A stretch of DNA of 64,000 bases from Sporosarcina sp. (lineage in GTDB: Bacteria > Bacillota > Bacilli > Bacillales_A > Planococcaceae). The stretch lies in the NCBI GenBank assembly GCA_029263895.1, contig JARIDO010000035.1:186001-250000 (forward strand), in the 5' to 3' direction. Positions 33,627-37,600 of this stretch are shown here, one piece after another; positions within the stretch are counted from its first letter, which is position 1, and every line of letters begins with the position of its first letter. The notes beneath the pieces were generated by a model. It was not told the origin of the DNA, did not search any database, and saw nothing but the letters and a program-made list of their open reading frames with translations. The position numbers and the translations under genes were made by a program.

Positions 33627-33790
33627 TTTGTTCATCATCTCCAATCATCTACTATAGTTAGTATACAATACTGAACAAAAACTGTATGAACAAAATGTGT
33701 CTGTTCAAAAGAAGCCAATACAAATAATCAATTACTATGGATTTTCTACCTATAATCATCTATACTATAATGGACTTAGGAGGTGTAGCA

Positions 33791-33925
33791 ATGAACGAAT
33801 TTGAACATGACGTGCAGTCAAAACGTAATGATCTTAACGATTCTATGGTCGGTTTCATCGTCGCATTTATAGGTTTTTCAGCAATTTTTATTGTTGCTAC
33901 AATTATCGACGTCGTAGCTGGCTAA
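33791..33925 (+). CDS. yqzM: YqzM family small membrane protein
   Basis: A 44-residue protein beginning MNEFEHDVQSKRND with one membrane helix (MVGFIVAFIGFSAIFIVATIIDVV). It matches the remembered B. subtilis YqzM in sequence and in position between holA and comEC. AGGAGGTG five bases before ATG 33791 sets the start; the ORF track begins 18 codons too early. Function unknown. Confidence 0.93.
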   Translation: MNEFEHDVQSKRNDLNDSMVGFIVAFIGFSAIFIVATIIDVVAG

Positions 33926-34016: not shown

Positions 34017-36317
34017 TCATTCTTTCATCGTTTTTATGACATAGCCATTTTGGGAAACAACTACTGTAATTGAGCCTTCCTCTTTCGTAGAAAGGGTTTT
34101 AAGGTTTAAATCATTGAAAGTTTGTAGGACATCTGGATGCGGGTGACCATAACGGTTTCTCTTCCCGGCCGAAAAAATCGTGAACTTAGGCATTAACATC
34201 GAAACGAATTCTTTGCTACTTGAAGTCTTACTGCCATGATGACCTGCTTTAAGTATTATTGTATTCCAATCAACATGCTTGAAATTGCTTACAAACTCCA
34301 TTTCTCCATTCTTCTCCAAATCCCCTGTAAATAAAAATGATAACTTATCAGCCATTAACAGAAGCACGAGAGAACTATCGTTGCCGGAATACGTATCACC
34401 GTTTGGCCAAAGATATTGCAGTTCATTGTCTCCCTCTTTCCATGCGTATCCTTTTTGCATAGGAATGATAGCAATCTTTTCTTTTTTTGCCAGTCGCAAA
34501 ACAGATGTCATGTTTTTTTCTAGCTCGCTTCCAGGAGAAATGTGAATTTCTTTTACATCAACTTCTTCCATCACTTCGTCTGCACCTTCCATATGGTCGC
34601 TATCAGCATGTGAGAGAATTAACTTGTCTATTTTTTGAATTCCACGGCCCTTTAAAAATGGTACAACTATTTTACGCCCAACTTCGAATTTCTTTTCAGG
34701 TGTTTTCCAATCCCGCTCACCAAATTGAACTGTTCCCCCTGTATCTATCACATAAGTAGCACGTTTGTATGGAAATTCAATAATGATACAATCCCCTTGC
34801 CCAACGTCGAGGTAGGTAACGCTAAGAAAACCATTAAAATGAGAAGAATAGTGAATAACGATTCCCATTATAACCACTACCGGTAAACTTCGTACAATCG
34901 AATTGTATTTCTCAAAATTGATAAATGAGTACAAAACACTACCATATGCCGCTATTAGTAAAAGAGGATTTGGTCTACCCGGGTTCCAAAGTTGAAAAGG
35001 AATTGCAGCCAACCAATTTGTGACCATTTCTAACATCCCACGTATTGGAACATAAAAGAAAAAAAGCAACTCTGCTAACGGTGTGAAGAAAAATGTAAAG
35101 AGTAGTAACAAAATGTTTAAAGGTAAAATAAGGAAAGAGTATAACGGAACATAAATACTATTCATTATAATTGACGACAATGAAACTTCAAAAAAATGAT
35201 ACAGAATTACAGGATAAACCGCTAACTGTGTAATGACAGATACTAAGAGAGTAGTTAAAAAGGCGGATTTTAGTCGTGATAAAATCCGCGTAGAATACAC
35301 CAGTGAAATAGCAGCTAGATAAGATAACTGAAATCCAACGTGAAATACGATATGCGGCTCATAACAGACGAACAAAATCGCACATAATGATAATGCATCG
35401 TCTACTCTCATTTTAGTCTTTTGATGTGCGTTTATAAGCAACAAAACAGTCACAGTAACAGCACGCCATATTGATGGAGCCCCGCCAACTAAGAAAGCAT
35501 ACAATGGCAATAGTACAATTAAGACTATATCCACTGTTTCAATTCGTAAATGTGCACGCATTAATATGTTACGGATGATAAATACTAACAAGCCAACATG
35601 AAGTCCAGATAGAGCAAATAGATGTGTAATCCCTAACGTTCTATAATTTTCAGTTTGCTCATCATTCATAGCACTCTTATCACCTAGAAGTAACGCAGTG
35701 GCTTCCGGAGCTAACGACGACGGAAATGTGGTTTTAATATGATTTTTTAGTTTCCATCTGCGTTCTGACATTCTTGATACAAAAGAATTATTATCGTCCA
35801 TTTGAATTAGTTTCTTCGACTCAAATAGACCTATAGATCCATTCATTCTTAAGTAGTTGCTCATACTAAACGAATAACTATGTGCCGGTAAATCAATCTC
35901 TTTAAATTCACCTTCCAAAGTCATTTCGATTGATGCAGGATTGGTGCCTTTAAAGTTTTCTTTTTCTTCTTCAGTTGGAAATGTATAAACAACATAGACA
36001 GTTTGACCATCATTTGTAGTTGCAAATCCTTTTATGTGATTACCGCTAATAGTTGTATCCGTTGACCACTTTATCGTCATTGTAGCAGCACTTTCAACTT
36101 TGCTAATCGGGATCGTTGTTAACATATAGTAGTAGGAAATAAACAGAGCACTAACTGCGAGGATGGGAGTAAGTAGATCTTTCTTTCGATTTAGAAAGAT
36201 GGGGATTAAGAATAGGTTAAAAAGGAGAATGAAAACCGGTCCGTATGCGGCAAATGCCGAAACGGTAACCGGAATTGCAATATAAACAAATCGAATTTGT
36301 TTTACTAATTTCCAAAT
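34017..36317 (-). CDS. comEC: DNA internalisation channel protein ComEC/Rec2, probable ATT start
   Basis: Forms the membrane channel for single-stranded DNA in natural transformation. The ORF track begins at ATG 36125 (702 residues), but the frame is open for 65 more codons and encodes two hydrophobic helices (YIAIPVTVSAFAAYG and LTPILAVSALFISYYY) expected at the ComEC N-terminus. No ATG, GTG or TTG lies there; ATT 36317 has AAAGGGTGA seven bases upstream and gives 766 residues, a normal family length. Next come the OB-like domain, the competence helices (GLHVGLLVF), and a C-terminal metallo-beta-lactamase-like nuclease domain with SHADSDH and KAGHHGS. It overlaps comEB by 13 bases. Confidence 0.93.
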   Translation of the reverse strand: MWKLVKQIRFVYIAIPVTVSAFAAYGPVFILLFNLFLIPIFLNRKKDLLTPILAVSALFISYYYMLTTIPISKVESAATMTIKWSTDTTISGNHIKGFATTNDGQTVYVVYTFPTEEEKENFKGTNPASIEMTLEGEFKEIDLPAHSYSFSMSNYLRMNGSIGLFESKKLIQMDDNNSFVSRMSERRWKLKNHIKTTFPSSLAPEATALLLGDKSAMNDEQTENYRTLGITHLFALSGLHVGLLVFIIRNILMRAHLRIETVDIVLIVLLPLYAFLVGGAPSIWRAVTVTVLLLINAHQKTKMRVDDALSLCAILFVCYEPHIVFHVGFQLSYLAAISLVYSTRILSRLKSAFLTTLLVSVITQLAVYPVILYHFFEVSLSSIIMNSIYVPLYSFLILPLNILLLLFTFFFTPLAELLFFFYVPIRGMLEMVTNWLAAIPFQLWNPGRPNPLLLIAAYGSVLYSFINFEKYNSIVRSLPVVVIMGIVIHYSSHFNGFLSVTYLDVGQGDCIIIEFPYKRATYVIDTGGTVQFGERDWKTPEKKFEVGRKIVVPFLKGRGIQKIDKLILSHADSDHMEGADEVMEEVDVKEIHISPGSELEKNMTSVLRLAKKEKIAIIPMQKGYAWKEGDNELQYLWPNGDTYSGNDSSLVLLLMADKLSFLFTGDLEKNGEMEFVSNFKHVDWNTIILKAGHHGSKTSSSKEFVSMLMPKFTIFSAGKRNRYGHPHPDVLQTFNDLNLKTLSTKEEGSITVVVSQNGYVIKTMKE

Positions 36318-36868
36318 AAATTATTCACCCTTTGCTTATAAGGGAGAAGTTCTTCTTCATCAATGCCAAGCCCTTCCATTTTCTGAAGCAACTCTTGAAT
36401 AAGTGTTTTTTTATCTTCACCGGAAAAATCTACGATTCGCTCATCAAATGGAATTTGCTGAACTTGAATACCGGAAAGCGCAAACAACTCTAAAGCATAT
36501 TCATCATTTTTATAGTTATTTGCATAAAAAACTTTTTTGACACCTGATTGAATGATAGCTTTTGAACATTGAAGACAAGGGAAATGAGTCACATACAATG
36601 TTGACCCTGCTACTGGAATACCATACTTTGAACATTGCAATAACGCATTCATTTCTGCATGTATTGTACGTACACAATGATTACCAACAACATAACATCC
36701 ATGATCTATACAATGATCACCGCCAGAAATAGAGCCATTATACCCTCCAGCTACAATTCTGTTATCCCTTACAATCGTGGCGCCTACAGCAAGCCGTGTA
36801 CAAGTGCTTCTTACTGCAAGAAGATGGCATTGAGCCATGAAGAACTGTTCCCATGTAATTCGCTCCAT
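36305..36868 (-). CDS. comEB: ComEB, dCMP deaminase family protein
   Basis: Zinc-dependent deoxycytidylate deaminase family encoded in the comE operon; in B. subtilis it is dispensable for transformation. The 187-residue protein shows HAEMNALLQ (ligand His and catalytic Glu) and PCLQCSKAI (ligand Cys pair), plus the CIDHGCYVVGNHCVRT insert. Its end overlaps the proposed comEC start. Confidence 0.95.
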   Translation of the reverse strand: MERITWEQFFMAQCHLLAVRSTCTRLAVGATIVRDNRIVAGGYNGSISGGDHCIDHGCYVVGNHCVRTIHAEMNALLQCSKYGIPVAGSTLYVTHFPCLQCSKAIIQSGVKKVFYANNYKNDEYALELFALSGIQVQQIPFDERIVDFSGEDKKTLIQELLQKMEGLGIDEEELLPYKQRVNNLFGN

Positions 36869-36911: not shown

Positions 36912-37559
36912 TTATTTTGTTTGTATCAACGACTCTAATTTCTCGTAGGTTTTCTCACCAATTCCTGAAACATTCATTAAATCTTCAGGCGTTTTAAATA
37001 AACCTTTTTCTGTTCGATACTGGATAATGGAGGTTGCTTTTGAAGGACCTATGCCTGGAAGTGTCATAAGTTCTTGCTCGTCAGCAATGTTAATATCCAC
37101 TCTATCATTTGCTGCTGAACTTTCAGTTGGACTGGCGATCATTAAACTCGTGTTTAATGCTTCTTCACCTTCAGCTAACACATAGATTAACAATTCATCT
37201 GAAACTTTCATAGCATGGTTAATCAATTTCGTATCCGCGTTTGGTAAATAGCCCCCAGCCGCATTGATGGCATCAATAATTCGGTCGCCTTCGTTCAACG
37301 GGTAGACACCCGGCAGCTTCACTGCACCTCTGACGTCTACAATGATCGTTTGTGTTTGAGGTGTCGCATCTCCATTCATTTCTTCTATTTCAGTTTTCAC
37401 TTCATTTTTTTTAGGGGATTGGAGTTGTTCACTGACGATTGATGTATTCGTATCGTCATGTTTTCGGGGAAAAAAGAGTAAAGCAGCGATGATAACAATA
37501 ATTACAATGAAAGTGAGGAGTTTACGCCATTTTTCGAATACAAAAGAAAGAAACTGCAT
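36912..37559 (-). CDS. comEA: Competence DNA receptor ComEA
   Basis: Membrane-anchored receptor that binds double-stranded DNA for uptake. The 215-residue protein has one membrane helix (LLTFIVIIVIIAALLFF), a polar linker, an SLBB-like domain (VDVRGAVKLPGVYPL, near residues 82-140) and a C-terminal pair of helix-hairpin-helix motifs (LMTLPGIGPSKA and LMNVSGIGEKT). The ORF track starts nine codons earlier; ATG 37559 has ACAGGTGA just upstream. First gene of comEA-comEB-comEC. Confidence 0.94.
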   Translation of the reverse strand: MQFLSFVFEKWRKLLTFIVIIVIIAALLFFPRKHDDTNTSIVSEQLQSPKKNEVKTEIEEMNGDATPQTQTIIVDVRGAVKLPGVYPLNEGDRIIDAINAAGGYLPNADTKLINHAMKVSDELLIYVLAEGEEALNTSLMIASPTESSAANDRVDINIADEQELMTLPGIGPSKATSIIQYRTEKGLFKTPEDLMNVSGIGEKTYEKLESLIQTK

Positions 37560-37600
37560 AGTCACCTGTCTTTCGGTTGCATCCATATGGAGTCCCCACT

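Follow-up and report, generated by a model that had tools for sequence, protein, structure and literature searches.

The comEC gene in a stretch of DNA from a Sporosarcina-like bacterium very probably initiates at an AUU codon (ATT in the DNA, position 36317 on the minus strand), which would be coupled to the upstream comEB gene and held in place by the overlap of the two genes. The window, the whole stretch of 64,000 nucleotides that was analysed, comes from an incomplete draft genome (2.3 Mb, 79% complete). An earlier sequence-only reading had proposed this start, and the proposal is now borne out by conservation of the codon in most of this soil-bacterial family, a coding signature in the extended part, domain positions like those of B. 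subtilis ComEC and the lack of any canonical alternative. The features concerned are as follows.

34017..36317, minus strand: comEC (DNA channel), 766 aa from the ATT, stop codon 34019-34017; profile matches
36315..36317, minus strand: probable comEC start codon, ATT; found without exception in 121 distinct junctions of the family, codon-column test
36126..36317, minus strand: 64-codon N-terminal part that would be lost with ATG-only annotation; third-position excess, structure model
36325..36333, minus strand: Shine-Dalgarno-like AAAGGGTGA, ending 7 nt before the ATT
36321..36323, minus strand: TAA that ends the open comEC frame on its upstream side, one codon before the ATT; read from the sequence
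36305..36868, minus strand: comEB (dCMP deaminase-like), 187 aa; TIGR02571, 264 bits
36307-36305, minus strand: comEB stop TAG, 13 nt inside comEC
36314..36319, minus strand: ComEB codons Leu184 (TTA) and Phe185 (TTT), containing the comEC ATT; residue and codon conservation
36912..37586, minus strand: comEA-like gene, a 224-aa ORF preceding comEB in the comE operon; judged from its position and a helix-hairpin-helix-like C-terminus

The comEC frame upstream of its first ATG

The comEC frame stays open from ATG 36125 back to the TAA at 36323-36321, as had been claimed, and continues after this stop with TTT at 36320, ATT at 36317 and then TGG AAA. There is no ATG, GTG or TTG in this frame between ATT 36317 and ATG 36125, and the latter, 64 codons on at residue 65, is indeed the first canonical codon. 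The Shine-Dalgarno-like sequence was found where it had been described, at 36333-36325 and 7 nt before the ATT, and so was the 13-nt overlap of the ATT with the comEB stop region (TAG at 36307-36305). The two genes thus overlap, with comEC in the −1 frame relative to comEB. In the arrangement that we infer from this geometry, ribosomes ending comEB at a stop 13 nt inside comEC would be positioned by the Shine-Dalgarno-like GGGTGA and would start, or restart, at AUU 36317, resulting in a 766-residue ComEC that possesses N-terminal membrane helices. Weak initiation at AUU would keep the output of ComEC low and tie it to comEB translation. Downstream of comEC and on the opposite strand, a small ORF (window positions 33737-33925, plus strand) encodes a membrane-like peptide, MNEFEHDVQSKRNDLNDSMVGFIVAFIGFSAIFIVATIIDVVAG, and ends resembling this ORF are visible at the equivalent place in relatives. 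Two ComK homologues were also present in the same genome (L312 and L313; bit scores 155 and 95), which suggests that this incomplete genome has a duplicated competence regulator.

The predicted 766 residues had been said to fit the family, and the ATT-started protein scored 318.6 bits against TIGR00361 (ComEC/Rec2), above the curated cut-off of 190.05. In a Pfam profile search of this 766-aa protein, PF03772 (competence) matched residues 209-466 (189.9 bits) and PF00753 (metallo-beta-lactamase) residues 504-713 (61.9 bits), while the DUF4131 model found no match. The corresponding domains of B. subtilis ComEC lie at 208-470 and 507-719, in a model reaching residue 776 (PMC5031224). Domain order is the same and residue numbers are almost the same in the two proteins, indicating that the ATT start gives the layout known from B. 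subtilis with hardly any shift in numbering, whereas a start at ATG 36125 leaves ComEC 64 residues short of it.

The protein sequence of the extension is conserved, and its codons 11-62 show the third-position excess typical of coding sequence in Sporosarcina genes. The sequence-only reading had placed two N-terminal helices in it; helices were predicted there, but as three stretches rather than two. The AlphaFold2 model placed them at residues 9-25, 28-43 and 49-68 with good confidence (pLDDT about 81-92 over residues 11-70), followed by a predicted OB-like strand region at 78-175. Beyond about residue 400 the model was poor because most alignment rows were partial. A fold search returned no significant match, and OB-fold proteins were among its weak matches, none with E below 0.001.

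Conservation of the ATT and the overlap with comEB

Sampling of the family covered 19 genera; about 11 of these contributed the 121 distinct junctions with comEC in the ATT frame, which was assigned from the downstream protein and not from the ATT itself. The ATT was invariant in these junctions (121/121), and in none of them (0/121) did the open frame ahead of the ATT contain ATG, GTG or TTG. In 51 of the 121, a canonical codon was also absent from the 30 codons downstream of the ATT. Among species in general, the first such codon lies anywhere from codon 3 to beyond codon 100. A stop one codon before the ATT, at the same distance as the TAA in the window, was found in 37 of the 121. Named genomes with this frame belong to Sporosarcina, Bhargavaea, Edaphobacillus, Psychrobacillus, Planococcus/Planomicrobium, Paenisporosarcina, Viridibacillus, Kurthia, Savagea and most Lysinibacillus. 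The suggestion that homologues might have ATG at this codon was not upheld, because the junctions of relatives carry ATT instead; nor do homologues begin at the equivalent of ATG 36125, a result that would have spoken against the ATT. The codon immediately before the ATT was rejected as a start because it varies (TTT, CTT, CCT, ACT, GTT etc.).

Within the genus, comEC or pieces of it were found in 48/48 genomes (in one of them the gene is broken, and in another there was hardly a match), and the ATT was identical in 30/30 of the loci first retrieved. Among 51 distinct genes of the genus Sporosarcina, codon 1 was ATT without exception, whereas Ile codons 5, 13 and 15 in this set were a mixture of ATT, ATC and ATA. 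Outside the family, a canonical start was present at the comEB-comEC junction in 20 of 21 cases. At one locus outside the family (L133; G323:C1, family f9), the first canonical codon of the comEC frame comes only 131 nt past the end of comEB. The two genes overlap there in ATAG, in place of the ATGA or the nearby ATG or TTG of relatives, which suggests another non-canonical (ATA) comEC start. In Sporosarcina thermotolerans (L220 / G023:C1:2729459-2731740), comEC contains several stops and frame changes with the ATT junction intact, reflecting either a decayed gene or sequencing errors. As for the ribosome-binding sequence, each base of GGTG at −12 to −9 was kept in 110-119 of the 121 junctions, and these bases also encode ComEB Val181. 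Part of Sporosarcina (L048-L051, L219) retained the ATT and lost the Shine-Dalgarno-like GGGTGA (cggaacgtgcacaagaactATT), suggesting stronger reliance on coupling to comEB in these genomes.

The sequence-only reading overlooked that the ATT sits within comEB codons that are themselves conserved, so that its persistence may have a cause other than regulation. The ATT spans the ComEB Leu184 and Phe185 codons, with its first base A being the wobble base of Leu. Both residues were invariant in 15/15 ComEBs of the family, and Leu-Phe was also found in several ComEBs outside it. Given that the TT of the ATT is dictated by Phe185, only the A represents independent evidence at the codon level, and the wobble base was therefore tested separately. 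Among 95 ATT-frame taxa, 81 comEB columns combined a conserved residue with synonymous codons, and the Leu184 wobble was the sole invariant third base in these degenerate columns (TTA 63, CTA 31). The other Leu columns were mixed, and about 34% of the other comEB Leu codons end in A. The ATT is thus conserved beyond what the overlapping comEB requires. By contrast, in 21 taxa whose comEC uses a TTG frame, the third base of Leu184 varies and Phe185 is always TTT, as needed by a TTG start in TTATTTG. However, low GC also favours TTT (106 of the 136 comEB Phe codons in the TTG-frame taxa), making this half of the contrast the weaker one.

Frame swapping and alternative explanations

A shifted comEC frame was found in Ureibacillus, Solibacillus, Metasolibacillus, Caryophanon, Chryseomicrobium and a few Lysinibacillus. 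In this frame a TTG lies 2 nt after the A of the ATT, within the same TTATTTGG; it was present in 48/48 TTG-frame junctions, half of which also have an ATG or GTG three codons upstream. Trees, in which ATT was spread over the family, gave 3 frame changes (77 rows) or 4 (174 rows), all of them from ATT to TTG if ATT is ancestral, and are consistent with an ancestral ATT that was lost repeatedly. The constancy of the start's place despite the change of frame speaks for initiation here in both groups. At a few loci (L096, L179) the motif was abandoned altogether.

We reasoned from the codon overlap that any NTG in the comEC frame would convert Phe185 from TTY to TGY (Cys). With NTG costing Phe185, the start would be confined to NTT, and selection would keep the best of these, ATT, by fixing the Leu wobble A. 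The exits that were observed are indels moving comEC to the TTG frame, in some cases with an additional ATG or GTG three codons ahead of the TTG, or new starts outside the motif. Such a constraint would account for both the invariance of the ATT and the form of the exits, and it is compatible with selection for weak initiation. A further-reaching version, which we consider rather unlikely, is that a DNA channel gene has been trapped at a sub-optimal AUU through the whole history of the family by a conserved ComEB Phe, with the only way out being a frame-shifting indel towards the TTG found two bases on within the eight-base motif, and that the weak start became, or always was, a point of competence control by IF3.

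The main rival to this constraint, or an addition to it, is that the AUU is kept because weak, IF3-sensitive initiation is useful: it would limit the amount of channel in the membrane and tie DNA uptake to the level of translation factors, in the manner of infC or sigR. We regard this as possible though doubtful. It gains from the conservation of the ATT over about 11 genera, from the in-frame ATT after a strong Shine-Dalgarno sequence in infC of the same genome and of most relatives checked, and from two published precedents, namely non-canonical starts in S. aureus giving ~10% of AUG output in poor medium (PMC13009471) and the GTC start of sigR being repressed by IF3 (PMC5472188). However, repeated exits to a TTG or ATG frame suggest that the weak start is dispensable, and the overlap with ComEB Phe185 accounts for the conservation without regulation. 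Control of comEC by IF3 is plausible.

The remaining explanations do without an AUU start, and each has far less in its favour. Use of a downstream canonical start (ATG 36125 in the window), with the upstream frame open by chance or unused, is very unlikely. Annotation programs normally accept only ATG, GTG and TTG, and the truncated ComEC scored as well as the long form against the Pfam and NCBIfam profiles; these profiles are blind to the difference since their models do not match the N-terminus. Against this stand the protein conservation and third-position excess of the extension and the variation between species in the position of the first canonical codon, which leaves no common downstream start. 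The truncated protein would also lack the N-terminal helices present in B. subtilis ComEC (PMC5031224). A ComEB-ComEC fusion made via programmed −1 frameshifting near the end of comEB would agree with the −1 frame of comEC and the overlap of the genes, but it is extremely unlikely, because an X XXY YYZ slippery heptamer is absent at TTA TTY / CTA TTY, any earlier shift is blocked by the in-frame stop one codon before the ATT in 37/121 junctions, and the TTG-frame taxa would need the opposite shift. That an assembly error masks a normal start is scarcely conceivable: the genome is an incomplete draft, but the same ATT recurs in numerous independent genomes of isolates, including several assembled as a single contig, and a sequencing error, which had been named as a possible objection, is excluded by dozens of independent genomes. 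Initiation at the AUU, coupled to comEB, is the most probable reading.

Comparison with known non-canonical starts

The initiation factor gene infC (IF3) uses a near-cognate AUU, AUA or AUC start that is conserved across species and follows a purine-rich Shine-Dalgarno sequence, and it is autoregulated by its own product. comEC resembles infC in having a near-cognate AUU after a Shine-Dalgarno-like sequence with conservation across species, and differs from it in encoding a membrane DNA channel rather than an IF3-autoregulated factor and in having its ATT inside an upstream coding sequence. The infC of the source genome (L305, G000:C39, about 15053) has an in-frame ATT after GGAGGTGG (ggaggtggatt ACT ATT AGC AAA GAC ATG), and the same arrangement is conserved in the Sporosarcina-group genomes that were read (L295-L299, L303, L304, L306-L308, L310). 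Because an in-frame ATG lies four codons after this ATT, infC of the source genome is at most compatible with an ATT start. It may represent a natural positive control, with autoregulation by IF3 a possibility.

A literature search covering few subscription journals found no named non-canonical comEC start. In the available part of a study of variable-start genes, Listeria comEC is listed and ATT is not among its starts (PMC13068326). Mis-annotation of ComEC is likely in the ATT-frame genera, as expected from the start codon alone. The sister lineages provide a natural experiment, in that the same TTATTTGG supplies ATT or TTG depending on the frame of comEC, and they could be used for a direct test of what weak initiation costs or is good for, as well as of the constraint imposed on start codons by overlapping genes.

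Streptomyces sigR, with its experimentally shown, IF3-repressed GTC start, resembles comEC in that a non-canonical start is conserved, across a genus in the case of sigR, where annotation usually misses it (PMC5472188). It differs in using another codon, in being proven by experiment and in having no reported lock by overlapping codons (PMC5472188), while the comEC case spans about 11 genera and is sequence-based. In S. aureus, retapamulin profiling identified the AUU start of cvfC1, among those giving the reduced output cited above, and the AUA start of ccpN, both with strong extended Shine-Dalgarno motifs (PMC13009471). These are likewise conserved near-cognate starts of Bacillota with Shine-Dalgarno support (PMC13009471); by contrast, the Shine-Dalgarno sequence of comEC is moderate and depends on overlapping comEB codons. 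Taken together, conserved non-canonical starts are already known as a kind, and comEC appears unusual among them in its breadth and in an overlap that apparently holds the start in place. With it, a membrane transport gene would join the very short list of bacterial starts other than ATG, GTG and TTG that are conserved, in this case over about 11 genera.
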